Source: Leptolyngbya sp. FACHB-321 | GTDB taxonomy: Bacteria > Cyanobacteriota > Cyanobacteriia > Leptolyngbyales > Leptolyngbyaceae | Direction: 5' to 3' | Assembly (NCBI RefSeq): GCF_014695975.1 | Contig: NZ_JACJPI010000058.1 | Location: 248,001-312,000, forward strand | DNA: 64,000 nucleotides | In this document: piece by piece, positions 53,411-61,878 of the stretch | Layout: each line of letters begins with the position of its first letter | Numbering within the stretch: position 1 is the first letter of the stretch | The notes under the pieces: model-generated | Seen by the model: the letters and a program-made list of their open reading frames with translations, nothing else | Database searches by the model: none | What the model was told of the DNA's origin: nothing | Made by a program: the position numbers and the translations under genes

Positions 53411-54622
53411 TCATGTTCTTAAACCTATCCTTTGCTTACATTGCACCCAAACCTTTCTAATTTTCCAGAATTTACTGCTTTCCATAGCAACATTTCTTTC
53501 TTGAGTTTGCTCTAGTTGGTTCTGGGTTTGCTCCAACTGAGCCTGCGTTTGCTCTAGTTGGTTCTGGGTTTGCTCCAACTGAGCCTGCGTTTGTCCTAAT
53601 TGGTTCTGAGTTTGCTCTAACTGAGCCTGCGTCTGCTCTAGTTGGTTCTGAGTTTGCTCCAACTGAGCCTGCGTTTGTCCTAATTGGTTCTGAGTTTGCT
53701 CCAACTGAGCCTGCGTTTGCTCTAGTTGGTTCTGAGTTTGCTCCAACTGAGCCTGCGTTTGTCCTAATTGGTTCTGAGTTTGCTCCAACTGAGCCTGCGT
53801 TTGCTCTAATTGGTTTTGAAAGTTTGATAACTCTGTTTGTAGCTGCAAATTTTGCTCATTAACACGTGAGTGCTTTAGGTTTAGTGCGGCATACTTGCCT
53901 TCAAGAGTCATTGGAAACGCACGTAGAACAAACTGTAGAGTATCTGCATCCTCTGCTTGCTCAACTTGGTGAATCAGTTCATCACTTAGGGATTGCCGTT
54001 CCACATCAGGTACATAGTACGACGAGCCAGAGAATACTGGAACAATTGTACGGTCAATAATATCCACCGTATAGCCTGCTCGTTCGAATAATTCTTGAAC
54101 CGTTTTCCGTGTAAAAAATCTTAGGTGGGTGTTATCTAAAAGACCCAAATCAGCATATTCAAAATGACCCTGCAAGAGTGAAAGCCGCACTGCACCATGA
54201 GCAATATTGGGAATTGAGGCAACAACATAGCCGCCAGGCTGCAAGATCTGGCGAGCTTCTTCCAGAACCCGCCAAGGATCGCGTAAATGCTCCAGAACGT
54301 CACCGAAGACAGCTACTTCAAATTTTTGGTCACGTAGAATCTCTGGAATAGAGATAAAATCCAAATCAGCGACGAGTACTTGATCACAGTGATGTTCTGC
54401 AATTTTTGCTGCTTCAGGATTCAGTTCCACTCCTACAACATAACAGCCTCTTTGCTTGAGGAATTGAGCAAAGTAGCCTGTAGCGCACCCAAAATCAACG
54501 ACTCGTTTGTTATTGCCAATTAAATTTAATTGTTTTTTTGAGCTGTTGTTTTCATCTAATTCGTTCTCATTTGTAATTTCTACTAAAGGATAGTTTTTTA
54601 CTTGACCAGAGGTAGAAGTCAT
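53411..54622 (-). CDS. Methyltransferase fused to a heptad-repeat coiled coil
   Basis: 403 residues. Residues 35-215 are a class I SAM methyltransferase (RVVDFGCATGYFAQFLKQRG, FGDVLEHLRDPWRVLEEARQ, NTHLRFFTRKTVQELFERAG). From about 260 to 375 there are 15 consecutive heptads of the type LEQTQAQ/LEQTQNQ/LGQTQAQ, a long coiled coil. The C-terminus is AMESSKFWKIRKVWVQCKQR, matching the start of the GT2 protein at 49.3 kb. It is on the opposite strand to the other glycan genes. The ATG at 54622 was used. Confidence 0.9.
   Translation of the reverse strand: MTSTSGQVKNYPLVEITNENELDENNSSKKQLNLIGNNKRVVDFGCATGYFAQFLKQRGCYVVGVELNPEAAKIAEHHCDQVLVADLDFISIPEILRDQKFEVAVFGDVLEHLRDPWRVLEEARQILQPGGYVVASIPNIAHGAVRLSLLQGHFEYADLGLLDNTHLRFFTRKTVQELFERAGYTVDIIDRTIVPVFSGSSYYVPDVERQSLSDELIHQVEQAEDADTLQFVLRAFPMTLEGKYAALNLKHSRVNEQNLQLQTELSNFQNQLEQTQAQLEQTQNQLGQTQAQLEQTQNQLEQTQAQLEQTQNQLGQTQAQLEQTQNQLEQTQAQLEQTQNQLGQTQAQLEQTQNQLEQTQAQLEQTQNQLEQTQERNVAMESSKFWKIRKVWVQCKQRIGLRT
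53495..53809 (-). repeat. 21-base heptad repeats with an 84-base higher-order period
   Basis: Fifteen in-frame 21-base units encoding LEQTQAQ, LEQTQNQ, LGQTQAQ or LEQTQNQ in a repeating four-unit order, with nearly identical DNA. It lies within the methyltransferase-coiled-coil gene. Confidence 0.95.
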
Positions 54623-55061
54623 ACGCAAATTTGCTCTGTAGGAATGGAGGTTAAAAGCTATAGATCGAACTAGGTTGTATTGCCCACCTTTTTCTTGATG
54701 ATGCAGATAAATCTTGTGAATTCTAGCTACTAAGATTTGCTATTCAATTATTGAAGTAAAGGGTAAGCCTACAACAATTTGGAACTTTGATGACATGAAG
54801 GTTTATTCCAGAGTGTAGTAGTACTTGTACTTTGAATAAAAAGGTTCTAAGTTTGGAATGTCAGAAAATTTATATAATTCTCAATAAAACTAATTTAACC
54901 TTTGAGTAAACATTTTGTCTGCTTATGTTAGTCTCGCCTTAAGCGACATTTGGCTAACACAATAAAATGATGACCGTATAAATTTTTAAGTATTTATATA
55001 AGCACTATAGTAAATTTTTGACGGGCAACCGATAAGTTTCTTTTAACGGTAGTATTTTATC
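54623..55061. other. AT-rich intergenic region in the glycan locus
   Basis: About 440 bases between divergent genes, very AT-rich. No gene or defined structure is seen. Confidence 0.45.
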
Positions 55062-57781: not shown

Positions 57782-59515
57782 TTAAAAACCGAGGTCAGCT
57801 TTGGCTGCTTCAGCCGCTTTGAAAACTACTGCTGCTGGCAATTCTTCCCAGGCAGGTTCGCTGATTTCAGCGTAAAAGGTTTCATCATAAGGACGAGTTT
57901 TAACGACGACTGGCATCGGGATCGCATGACCCAGGATTAAAGCTTGTTGCTTGGAGTCTAATTTTGCCAGCACTGATCGCAGGCTTTGTGCGCCCGAAAC
58001 GCCAGTGAAAATGGCATCAATATCTTTCTCGTCGTTAAGCAGCGCTGTAATGCGAGTCCCGATCTGAGACATGACTTCGTTGTCGATACCGGATGGACGT
58101 TGATCGACCACCAAAAGAGTGACGAAGTACTTTCGCATTTCACGGGCGATCGTGCCAAAAATAGTTTGTCCCACGGTCGAGGGATCAAGAAAGCGATGTG
58201 CTTCTTCGATCGTGATCACAAGCTGGCGCGGGCGATCGCTCACCTTCTTGGTCTGTAAAAACTGTTCGGCTTTCCGAACATAGGCATGGTGGATGCGACG
58301 TGCGATCACGTTTGTTGCCAGCATATAGGACAGTAGATTTGACTGAGAGCCAAACTCGACGACAACGTGTTTACCGGCTTCGATCGACTCTAAAATCTGT
58401 CCGACATAATTGTGCGGGCAGGTCTGGCGAATATACTTCAGCTCATCTAGACGATTGAGCTTCCGTTGCAACGCCATGATTGAAGATTTACTGCCCATTT
58501 TGGTTTCGCAAAACTCTTGAATTTCGCCGTTGCTCATTGCTAATAGACGGCTAATCCAGGCTTTGCCAAACTCATTGCGAAGAATAATCGCATTTTCTAG
58601 ACTGGCTTCCGACAGATTAAGTTCACCCCGCACCAGCATCAAATCTTCTACGTCGATCTGATCGAAACTGATATAAAGCTCTTGTGCGTCCCGTACGCCG
58701 CGTCGCTTTGTCGAGTCCGGATCAAGGGTGTAAATTTGCACCTGACCCGGAAACAGTTGCCGAAGCCCCTTGACTGTGCTGAACTGCTTGCCTTCGCGTG
58801 CGGCTTCCCAGCCATATTCGGAGTGCATATCAAAGATAAGGTTCACCGCTGCCTGTTTGCGGATGATGCCTGATAGCAGTAACCGTGTCAGAAACGATTT
58901 CCCCGTCCCAGATTTACCGAAGACGCCGTTGCTGCGCTCAACAAAGCGATCGAGATCAATGCAAACGGGCACTGCCATATCGATCGGTTGCCCAATCGCA
59001 AAATTCCGTCTACTTGGGTCATCCTCCCACCCAAAGACTGCCCGAAAGTCTCGCTCGCTAGCATCATAAACCTGGCTAAAGTGACCGGGGATTGTTTTGA
59101 CTGGAAGCAGTTCGATGTCTGCACTAGTTTGAGCGGTGTAAGAACCGGCGCTTTCAGCTTTTAGCTTTCGGCTTTCAGCTTTCCGGTTGCTAACGGTTGA
59201 CGGTCGATCGCTAACTGCTTCTCCTGGTGTAAACATCAGCATCGGCGTTAAGGCGATCGTGCCAAAGGTGCCTGTACCAGCAAGAACTTCCTGCAAAAAA
59301 CTGTTGGGATCAGGTGGATTGGCAAGAATGCGGGGACTACCTGTACCCAGAGAAACGTCGGTGAGCATACAAAAGAAGCGCGATCGCATTCCCTGCACCA
59401 CCAGAAACTTGCCTACGCGCATATCTTCCACAAACACATCGGGGTGCAAGCGGACTTCTAGCCCCTGACTAAGGGAGCCCTGAACGACGGAACCGAGTGG
59501 TTGCTCTGGAGCCAT
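57782..59515 (-). CDS. HerA-like ATPase (DUF87 family)
   Basis: 577 residues. An N-terminal HAS-barrel-like region is followed from about 175 by a RecA-like motor with Walker A GKSGTGKSFLTRLLL and Walker B LVITIEEAHRFL, then VDQRPSGIDNEVMSQIGTRI as a sensor/Arg-finger region. HerA-type ATPases translocate on DNA, often with NurA nuclease, in end resection or defence. No NurA is adjacent. Residues of about 108-122 (VSNRKAESRKLKAESAGS) are encoded by a low-complexity repeat that interrupts the N-terminal domain. Confidence 0.9.
   Translation of the reverse strand: MAPEQPLGSVVQGSLSQGLEVRLHPDVFVEDMRVGKFLVVQGMRSRFFCMLTDVSLGTGSPRILANPPDPNSFLQEVLAGTGTFGTIALTPMLMFTPGEAVSDRPSTVSNRKAESRKLKAESAGSYTAQTSADIELLPVKTIPGHFSQVYDASERDFRAVFGWEDDPSRRNFAIGQPIDMAVPVCIDLDRFVERSNGVFGKSGTGKSFLTRLLLSGIIRKQAAVNLIFDMHSEYGWEAAREGKQFSTVKGLRQLFPGQVQIYTLDPDSTKRRGVRDAQELYISFDQIDVEDLMLVRGELNLSEASLENAIILRNEFGKAWISRLLAMSNGEIQEFCETKMGSKSSIMALQRKLNRLDELKYIRQTCPHNYVGQILESIEAGKHVVVEFGSQSNLLSYMLATNVIARRIHHAYVRKAEQFLQTKKVSDRPRQLVITIEEAHRFLDPSTVGQTIFGTIAREMRKYFVTLLVVDQRPSGIDNEVMSQIGTRITALLNDEKDIDAIFTGVSGAQSLRSVLAKLDSKQQALILGHAIPMPVVVKTRPYDETFYAEISEPAWEELPAAVVFKAAEAAKADLGF
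59150..59183. repeat. Low-complexity repeat inside the HerA-like gene
   Basis: Alternating CTTTCAGCTTTTAG and CTTTCGGCTTTCAG units, in frame. Similar tracts occur between genes at about 31.55, 32.15, 37.80 and 43.45 kb. Confidence 0.75.
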
Positions 59516-59822
59516 TCAATTACTCTAAACTTCACTGATCAAGCGATGTCTAGGCAGCAGACATTGCCTAACCTCGATCAAGCAACATTTTTTCAAAGCC
59601 GACAGGTTAAAGCAAATGTACTAATGACGTAAAACAAGCGTACCATTTTGCTTGCTAAATGCAAGCGATCGCGCTTATCACAGCAAAAAATCGACTCTTT
59701 GCAGAATCGGACGAATGTCAACTAAACGACTTGAAGTAGCTCAGCGTTGGCAGTATACGAGCGTCTGTAATCAATCAATGCGCCTGTCATTGCTTCAGAG
59801 AGCAACTTAAAGGTAAATGCTT
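59516..59822. other. Intergenic region
   Basis: About 300 bases upstream of the HerA-like gene and downstream of the amidohydrolase. Nothing recognisable. Confidence 0.4.
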
Positions 59823-61076
59823 TTATGCACCATGCCAGTCAGTTTTGGGTGGATCTGTTTTTGCCAGCAGCTTGCCCTGCGAAATGACATAACGCACCGT
59901 GGCGCGGCGACGGATCGCATCGTAACGATCATGAGCATCCAGCACAATTAGATTTGCAGGTTTGCCGACTTCAACGCCATAGCGATCGCTCACATTTAGC
60001 GTTTTCGCACCATTCCACGTCACCATGTCATAGCAGGCATCAATCTCGGCAGTACCTGTCATCTGGCAAACGTGGAGTCCCATAGAGGCGACATCCAGCA
60101 TATTGCCTGTGCCGAGAGAATACCAGGGATCTTGGATACAGTCGTGTCCGAAACTGACGTTAGTGCCTTGCTGCCAGAGTTCTTTAACGCGAGTCACACC
60201 GCGACGTTTGGGATAGGTGTCCGTGCGTCCTTGCAGCGTGATGTTGATCAAAGGATTGGCGATGAAGTTGAGTTCGGTGCGACGAAGAAAGCTAAGTAGT
60301 TTGAAGGCGTAGGCATTGTTATAAGAACCAAAGGCAGTGGTGTGGCTGGCGGTGACGCGAGACCCCATACCAGTACGCATTGCCTCCGCTGCAACCACTT
60401 CGAGAAAGCGGGACTGATCATCATCAATTTCGTCGCAGTGGATATCGATGAGGCGATCGTATTTCTGAGCCAACTCAAAAATGCGATGCACTGATTTCAC
60501 CCCATCTTCTCGCGTCAGTTCATAGTGAGGAATGCCACCAACAGCATCGGCACCCATTTCCATTGCTTTCTCAATCAGGCTGTCGTTCTGCGCTCCACCA
60601 TAGATACCGTCTTGCGGAAAAGCAACAACTTGGAGCGTCATCCAGTCTTTTACAGCTTCGCGGACATCTAAAAGCGCCTGAAGTGCGGTGAGGCTGGTTT
60701 CGCTGACATCGGCATGGCTACGGACAAAGAGAACGCCCAGCATGGCTTGCTGCTTCAGGGTTTCAATGGCGCGGGCTTTGCCATCTTCTAGTGAAAGGTT
60801 TTGCTTACGATCGCGCCAAATTTCAATGCCTTCAAACAACGTACCGCTTTGGTTCCAGCGCGGGTCGCCAACCGTTAGTGCTGAGTCGAGATGAATGTGT
60901 GACTCGACAAAGGGTGGACTCACAAGCTGCCCCTGAAGGTCAATGTCAAGGGTGGCAGACTCTACAATCTGAGACTCAATCGTGACGATCGTCCCCTGCC
61001 GCACCGCAATATCCACTGTTGCGATCGTCCCATCTCTCTGAAGCAAGCGACCCTGACGCAGGAGCAAATCGTACAT
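59823..61076 (-). CDS. Cytosine deaminase-family amidohydrolase
   Basis: 417 residues, TIM-barrel amidohydrolase of the CodA type. Metal ligands and catalytic residues: His60 and His62 (ESHIHLDSA), His213 and Glu216 (DIHCDEIDDDQSR), His245 (ASHTTAFGSYN) and Asp312 (SFGHDCIQDPWYSLGTGNML). The residue after the catalytic Asp is Cys313, where E. coli CodA has Asp314. The substrate is therefore probably not plain cytosine. It is 25 bases downstream of cpcT, and its ribosome site AAGGTGTGAAG arises from a duplication of the cpcT stop region. The ATG at 61076 was chosen over a GTG two codons upstream. Confidence 0.9.
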   Translation of the reverse strand: MYDLLLRQGRLLQRDGTIATVDIAVRQGTIVTIESQIVESATLDIDLQGQLVSPPFVESHIHLDSALTVGDPRWNQSGTLFEGIEIWRDRKQNLSLEDGKARAIETLKQQAMLGVLFVRSHADVSETSLTALQALLDVREAVKDWMTLQVVAFPQDGIYGGAQNDSLIEKAMEMGADAVGGIPHYELTREDGVKSVHRIFELAQKYDRLIDIHCDEIDDDQSRFLEVVAAEAMRTGMGSRVTASHTTAFGSYNNAYAFKLLSFLRRTELNFIANPLINITLQGRTDTYPKRRGVTRVKELWQQGTNVSFGHDCIQDPWYSLGTGNMLDVASMGLHVCQMTGTAEIDACYDMVTWNGAKTLNVSDRYGVEVGKPANLIVLDAHDRYDAIRRRATVRYVISQGKLLAKTDPPKTDWHGA

Positions 61077-61080
61077 CTTC

Positions 61081-61123
61081 ACACCTTAATTTCGTCTGCG
61101 TTTACACCTTAACTTCGTCTGCG
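61081..61123. repeat. Tandem duplication at the cpcT stop codon
   Basis: ACACCTTAATTTCGTCTGCG (61081-61100) and ACACCTTAACTTCGTCTGCG (61104-61123), one mismatch, 23-base period. One copy encodes the end of CpcT and the other supplies the leader of the amidohydrolase gene. Confidence 0.85.
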
Positions 61124-61689
61124 AAGCTCGCCCAGCGCACAAATTCAAACGGTCCCGCAACCGAACCCCACAAGTGTTCATCAGTTTCAGGATCACGTCC
61201 GCGATCAAGGCTAATGAATTTTTCGCCATCAATCTCAAATTCACTATCAAGGTAGGTATTTACACCACGACGGACGACCATACAGGCTTTACCAGGTTCA
61301 ACCGCTCCCTTAAAACTGTGTCCCGTCCACTGCACTCGCACATTGCACCCTGGCAGCTTTTCGAGGTGGTCAGCTTTGAGCGTTGGCAATCGTTTAACAT
61401 CGCGAGTCGCGCCATAAAACTGTGCTTCATCGTGCACACGGTAGTTTTCGATTTCGATGCGATCGTTCGTTGCCATCAACTTCAGCACCCGCACTCGATA
61501 GGGATCGTTCAGCGCATAATCATATGCCTGCTCTACCAGCAAACTCACGCCTGACAACAGCTCTAGCGGCAAGGGACGCATACAAACGCGAATATGGGCA
61601 AAAAAGGGCGGATTTTCAAACGCTTGCGCTTGATTGCTAAAATCTGCTGCCATCCAACGCCCCAGGGTTGCGATATCAGTGGAGTGAGT
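61102..61689 (-). CDS. cpcT: Phycocyanin beta-subunit (Cys-155) lyase CpcT
   Basis: 195 residues. Starts MTHSTDIATLGRWMAADFSN, which is the typical CpcT N-terminus, and has FAHIRVCMRPLPLELLSG, YDYALNDPYRVRVLKL, LEKLPGCNVRVQWTGHSFKG and SLDRGRDPETDEHLWGSVAG. It attaches phycocyanobilin to the second Cys of CpcB, complementing CpcEF at 27 kb. The Met at 61689 was chosen over one seven codons upstream. Transcribed with the amidohydrolase. Confidence 0.92.
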   Translation of the reverse strand, partial: THSTDIATLGRWMAADFSNQAQAFENPPFFAHIRVCMRPLPLELLSGVSLLVEQAYDYALNDPYRVRVLKLMATNDRIEIENYRVHDEAQFYGATRDVKRLPTLKADHLEKLPGCNVRVQWTGHSFKGAVEPGKACMVVRRGVNTYLDSEFEIDGEKFISLDRGRDPETDEHLWGSVAGPFEFVRWASFADEVKV

Positions 61690-61878
61690 CATTAATCGTG
61701 TGCTCTCCAAAATACTGACACTATCTTAAAGCCGTCGTTGTTCTTTCGGTAAGGAGTAAGGAGTGAGGAGTAGAAAGTTTTGAGTAGCGCTTTGCGGCAG
61801 GGTGAGGAGTAGAAGGCTGGAAGTGATGAGTTGGCTCTCTATTCCCAACTCCGACTCCCTATTCCCCTCCCCACGTCC

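Follow-up and report, generated by a model that had tools for sequence, protein, structure and literature searches.

A CodA-like deaminase gene of Leptolyngbya sp. FACHB-321 encodes cysteine (Cys313) at the position of the discriminating Asp314 of E. coli CodA, and this residue is no oddity: cyanobacteria, like several other groups, usually have Cys at 314 (CodA numbering). The gene is part of the analyzed window, a stretch of 64,000 nucleotides (Table 1). Judged from sequence matches and predicted fold, its product is a genuine cytosine deaminase family enzyme, which within the CodA cluster is unremarkable but instructive. The protein is probably a deaminase of free cytosine-type bases which serves salvage and nitrogen scavenging and plausibly tolerates 5-methylcytosine. 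In the excerpts of open-licence literature among the matches listed, neither a cyanobacterial Cys-type enzyme nor a cpcT-codA pair is described.

Table 1. Features of the deaminase locus, in positions of the window.
Feature	Position	Strand	Remarks
Cytosine-deaminase-family gene (CodA/PRK09230-like, Cys-pocket class)	59823..61076	-	417 aa; based on frame, PDB and NCBIfam matches, and fold
Codon of Cys313 (TGT)	60138..60140	-	Aligned with E. coli CodA Asp314
cpcT-like phycobiliprotein lyase gene (Pfam CpeT)	61102..61710	-	E 8.7e-70; TTG start taken from ORF limits
23-nt tandem duplication	61078..61123	-	Copies 61078-61100 and 61101-61123, 91% identical
Terminator-like hairpin with T run	59692..59709	-	About 115 nt past the codA stop; consensus match only

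The open reading frame starts with ATG at 61076 and is free of internal stops; an in-frame GTG at 61082 is a possible earlier start, which would add two residues. A phmmer search of the PDB gave 477.7 bits for E. coli CodA (1k6w) and 436.4 bits for the 5-methylcytosine deaminase of K. pneumoniae (4r7w), while AtzC followed far behind with about 170 bits. On these matches, the homology of the protein to the CodA family is far beyond chance. The protein passes the cut-offs of the NCBIfam models PRK09230 (570 bits, cut-off 483) and PRK07572 (510.3 bits, cut-off 438, below its own PRK09230 score). E. coli CodA likewise exceeds the PRK07572 cut-off (490.9 bits), and the two rows of the PRK07572 branch that were scored, L175 and L082, gave 792 and 783 bits. 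A K. pneumoniae-type relative on a Klebsiella plasmid (L172) also passes PRK09230 with 598 bits, so this model does not tell the pocket classes described below apart. The predicted structure (mean pLDDT 85.5), used for fold comparison only, matched best to CodA (3o7u/1k6w, TM 0.90-0.91) and to 4r7w (TM 0.91). AtzC (4cqb, 2qt3) belongs to the same cluster and shares the fold with TM 0.84-0.85. The loops 278-291 and 316-321 of the model have pLDDT below 50, and the orientation of Cys313 is therefore derived from the alignment alone.

The window protein shares with E. coli CodA (1k6w, 3o7u; PRK09230) the fold, the metal ligands, Gln156, Glu217, His246, Asp313, Trp319 and the NPL(V/I)N loop. Among 14 CodA residues compared, 11 are identical (H61, H63, L81, F154, Q156, H214, E217, H246, D313, W319 and Y320) and three differ, namely T66 (Ser), V278 (Ile) and D314 (Cys). 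The first-pass annotation had stated that all metal and catalytic residues of CodA are present. This is borne out, since H61, H63, Q156, H214, E217, H246, D313 and W319 are all kept in the window protein and are unchanged in 49/49 aligned sequences. It had also placed Cys313 at the position of Asp314, and the alignment of GHDCIQDPWY with CodA GHDDVFDPWY without gaps agrees with it; the window protein thus lacks the Asp at 314 that would mark CodA itself. Position 314 is the one mutated in the PDB entries 1r9x, 1r9y and 1r9z (D314G/A/S). The Gln which is described as a mark of CodA-cluster enzymes in an excerpt of PMC12828455 is present as Gln155.

A reading of Cys313 as a loss peculiar to this protein is not supported by the comparison with its relatives. 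A whole-protein search (E 1e-60) of 144 genomes, the own genome and relatives, gave a match in 85, all 85 of them with Cys at 314 and without a stop within the match; 11 of the 85, at 44-48% identity, come from a branch further away. The 80 loci from a contig scan, many of them from the same genomes, all carry Cys as well, a sample that is biased because one of the search patterns included the Cys. Across the cyanobacterial phylum the family was found in 21/386 genomes (E 1e-60), and the 8 of these 21 that add to the loci above all have Cys. The divergent cyanobacterial orthologue L074 (G088; 60% identity) has Cys at 314, and it carries GQDC and ASHTC at the sites of the Klebsiella-type Gln and Cys. 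Plasmid-borne relatives are mixed: of 20 picked by hand from two sets (60 of 353 and 60 of 355 records), nine have Cys (Azospirillum, Cupriavidus, Sinorhizobium, Rhizobium, Phyllobacterium, Haematobacter, Ruegeria, Rhodovulum, Haloarcula), five Asp (E. coli, Vibrio, Proteus, Levilactobacillus, Embleya) and six Ser (Klebsiella, Citrobacter, Aerococcus, Burkholderia, Halomonas, Latilactobacillus), among the matches listed. In two distant paralogues encoded by the own genome this position is Asn. Within what was sampled, the Cys-pocket class is widespread.

Residue 278 covaries with residue 314. In a set of 53 rows, Val278 occurs in 5/5 Asp rows, Glu278 in 6/6 Ser rows and Ile278 in 41/42 Cys rows, the exception being Haloarcula with Thr; of the 85 cyanobacterial loci, 81 have Ile here and the other 4 have Val. 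Three pocket classes appear from these alignments: Asp314/Val278, Ser314/Glu278 as in the K. pneumoniae 5-methylcytosine deaminase, and Cys314/Ile278 as in the window protein. The last class includes the PRK07572 branch (rhizobia, Rhodobacterales and some cyanobacteria), which has Cys314, Ile278 and Ser/Ala66 like the window protein at 43-48% identity.

Two trees were calculated for the history of the site. For the cyanobacterial part, 132 of 165 loci were kept after those identical over the last 200 residues had been dropped. Tree 1 has 68 rows: the window protein with two paralogues, 53 of these loci (a greedy selection below 80% identity with a minimum length of 370 aa) and 12 plasmid rows. 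Tree 2 has 53 rows; it contains 32 of those 53 loci, hand-picked for broad coverage, together with the 20 plasmid rows and the window protein, and excludes the long paralogues. In tree 1 a single clade (100/100) unites the Asp rows with the Ser rows and sits among Cys rows: Haloarcula, the cyanobacterial L074, the PRK07572-type branch and the other cyanobacterial rows lie outside it. The forks which fix this order are unstarred (90/84, 89/83, 80/76), and the bootstrap itself had not reached a settled state. In tree 2, Cys is separated from Asp and Ser by a single split (90/91, unstarred) with an unsettled internal branch order; Ser is one group (94/93) and Asp requires two changes. Both trees agree with an older Cys state, and Asp may be derived because Asp and Ser enzymes group together, the deciding forks being unstarred. 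This reading is limited by the sparse sampling outside the cyanobacteria, by the great length of the Haloarcula branch and by rooting only through very distant rows or at the midpoint. The window protein lies apart from the rhizobial and Rhodobacterales PRK07572 members, which are a separate starred branch in both trees.

The replacement of Asp314 raises the question of 5-methylcytosine. The first-pass annotation had linked the loss of this Asp to activity on 5-methylcytosine, and the link is in print: the discussion of PMC6186785, citing Hitchcock 2014, reports that CodA gains 5-methylcytosine activity by an Asp to Ala exchange at the discriminating site and that the Klebsiella enzyme has Ser there (numbered 315). 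A true 5-methylcytosine deaminase, which selects 5-methylcytosine or other 5-substituted cytosines from foreign DNA or RNA debris or from the cell's own methylation, would fit this and the Cys of three Rhodobacterales relatives. Further enzymes, R. sphaeroides Rsp0341 and C. glutamicum NCgl0075, were reportedly also tested by Hitchcock et al. in 2014, and Rsp0341 is said to be a proven 5-methylcytosine deaminase. The pocket, however, is unlike that of the K. pneumoniae class. The K. pneumoniae enzyme (4r7w/4r85/4r88) shares the fold, the absence of Asp314 and the motif IQDPWY with the window protein, but 4r7w and the relative L172 have Ser314, Glu278 and Ala66, where the window protein has Cys, Ile and Ser. 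4r7w reads AQDSIQDPWY, with AQ before the catalytic Asp instead of GH, and its class has PTE(S/N) in place of NPLIN. Since the Glu278 carboxylate of the K. pneumoniae enzyme is absent here, its specificity is not simply transferable and the Klebsiella enzyme is no straight proxy.

Supply and product fate also speak against a dedicated 5-methylcytosine deaminase. No C5-methyltransferase (PF00145) was matched in the own genome at E 1e-10 or 0.01, while 10/14 control genomes were matched, Synechococcus elongatus included. In the own genus the deaminase is present in 7/7 genomes and a PF00145 match in 2/7. Over 144 genomes, 47 have both, 38 the deaminase only, 39 PF00145 only and 20 neither, i.e., there is no association (Fisher p 0.23). 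Thymidine kinase (PF00265) was likewise not matched in the own genome at E 0.01 (10/14 controls matched), and of its two Glycos_trans_3N proteins one is TrpD and the other a PRK07394 protein, neither being a thymidine phosphorylase. With 97.2% completeness and 91 contigs, the assembly could have a gap where a methyltransferase or kinase gene lies. Two uracil phosphoribosyltransferases (Upp) score over the cut-off, which together with the missing thymidine kinase match favors uracil over thymine as a usable product. The proposal that the enzyme recycles 5-methylcytosine from the cell's own DNA was consequently dropped: the PF00145 tests (own genome; 144 genomes, own included) do not support it, and a missing Asp314 by itself is no evidence for such recycling. 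The methylated base could still come from 5-methylcytosine in RNA or from outside DNA. N4-methylcytosine, considered as another candidate substrate, is not turned over by E. coli CodA according to an excerpt of PMC11898903. Taken with both sides, a true 5-methylcytosine deaminase appears unlikely.

Other evidence points to nitrogen metabolism, and a second alternative is that the main substrate of the Cys class is another base or ring, such as isoguanine, oxidised cytosine or a ureide- or triazine-like compound, in an AtzGE nitrogen-scavenging route. AtzE was found at E 1e-120 in 70/144 genomes, in 69 of them above the cut-off, and it co-occurs with the deaminase (both/deaminase only/AtzE only/neither: 62/23/8/51; Fisher p 7e-13). 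The co-occurrence holds outside the own family (34/16/5/47, p 8e-10) and is weak inside it (28/7/3/4, p 0.063); all three tests treat genomes as independent, which they are not. In Microcoleus (L137, 5219-10724) a ureidoglycolate-lyase-like gene, a Cys-type deaminase gene, a KGK-domain gene with other small open reading frames, AtzG and AtzE follow each other. The ureidoglycolate-lyase-like protein scores 36.3 bits at a Pfam cut-off of 23 and has no NCBIfam match at E 1e-10. This cluster is possibly a base or ureide nitrogen route in cyanobacteria. An AtzE gene lies downstream of the deaminase gene in Okeania (L150), and L159 has a similar gene; in the own genome AtzE is encoded on another contig, preceded by a short AtzG-like frame (named by resemblance). 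The Cys-type gene of Ruegeria adjoins genes for a BMP family protein and an amidase, and those of Azospirillum, Rhizobium ruizarguesonis and Haematobacter adjoin ABC permeases. Furthermore, substrate scopes in the CodA cluster are broad, and two of its members, when assayed, converted just a single library compound (excerpt of PMC12828455).

Against another base or ring stands the pocket itself, as all 14 checked sites except 66, 278 and 314 are those of CodA and Glu217 is kept, unlike in AtzC, which has His at this position (excerpt of PMC4577212). AtzC has Asn304 and His219 where the window protein has Cys and Glu, and an AtzC-like function was rejected on this disagreement of the pocket residues. 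We regard a main activity on another base or ring as quite improbable. Nitrogen control of codA by NtcA was also considered: NtcA-type sites (GTAN8TAC) occurred within 300 nt upstream in 3/129 loci (three of the 132 non-redundant loci were dropped since their upstream sequence was too short) compared to 3.6 expected, so there is no enrichment and the idea is unsupported. A degenerate or inactive homologue, for which only the missing Asp would speak, is hardly credible given metal and catalytic residues invariant in 49/49 sequences, Cys kept in 85/85 and no internal stops in the 85 matches.

The placement of codA directly after cpcT, which the first-pass annotation had called unexpected, is real. 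The cpcT gene, for which we read an in-frame ATG at 61692 as a likelier start than TTG, ends 25 nt upstream of codA on the same strand. Most of this gap (61077-61101) is occupied by the 23-nt duplicate of the cpcT 3' end, which precedes the codA start. cpcT is located upstream on the same strand in 18/35 own-family genomes with codA and in 0/50 other genomes; one locus in each group (L024 in the own family, L051 among the others) has too little upstream sequence to judge. The gap in the 18 pairs of the non-redundant set ranges from 2 to 47 nt and is 2-7 nt in 13/18. Downstream neighbors of these loci, six of which are covered by about 1.5 kb per side only, are mostly small families that differ between them, and some upstream neighbors are common to several loci. 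This suggests that the cpcT-codA pair is kept as a unit within the own family, and from the spacing we infer co-transcription. Outside the cpcT-paired loci, the neighbors of codA vary.

In the window, codA stands between cpcT and a HerA/DUF87 ATPase gene (57782-59515) located downstream on the same strand; unlike in E. coli, codB is not adjacent, and a Transp_cyt_pur permease is encoded elsewhere in the genome. The HerA/DUF87 gene lies likewise downstream in L006, L007 and L009 of the same genus, and upstream on the other strand in the Okeania loci L150 and L159. Terminator-like sites such as the one behind codA were found five times in the window compared to 2.9 expected. At 53411-54628 a methyltransferase-like open reading frame with near-identical C-terminal QLEQTQ-type repeats was noted by reading.

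In the preferred reading, that of a deaminase of free cytosine-type bases, the protein would act as a metal-dependent amidohydrolase of the CodA cluster and deaminate its substrates hydrolytically. By homology, His60, His62, His213 and Asp312 would bind the metal and activate the water, protons would be transferred by Glu216 and His245, Gln155 would hold the ring carbonyl and Trp318 would stack on the ring. Cys313 would stand beside the substrate in place of the carboxylate and should form, together with Ile277, a neutral wall which tolerates a 5-substituent better. In the cell, the protein would mainly convert cytosine to uracil and ammonia, for salvage by uracil phosphoribosyltransferase and for nitrogen scavenging; the AtzE co-occurrence, the Microcoleus gene order, the AtzE gene of the own genome and its Transp_cyt_pur permease are in line with this role. 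5-methylcytosine from outside is a plausible second substrate, although its product thymine would probably be unsalvageable by this cell.

A more far-reaching and rather speculative idea is that the CodA cluster has a third specificity class in the Cys enzymes, which lack both Asp314 and Glu278. Such a class would accept its own set of substrates in a neutral pocket (cytosine as well as 5-substituted or oxidised cytosines), would be older than CodA and, in Leptolyngbya-like cyanobacteria, would be tied to phycobilisome maintenance by the conserved cpcT-codA unit. What had been taken for a one-off substitution is a class-wide state, and the textbook Asp314 may be the exception, which would bear on the annotation of many "cytosine deaminases". 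The Cys class may also bear on 5-fluorocytosine counter-selection in cyanobacteria that carry codA; the cyanobacterial 5-fluorocytosine sensitivity described in excerpts of PMC9313322 and PMC7133116 concerns introduced codA, not the native gene.
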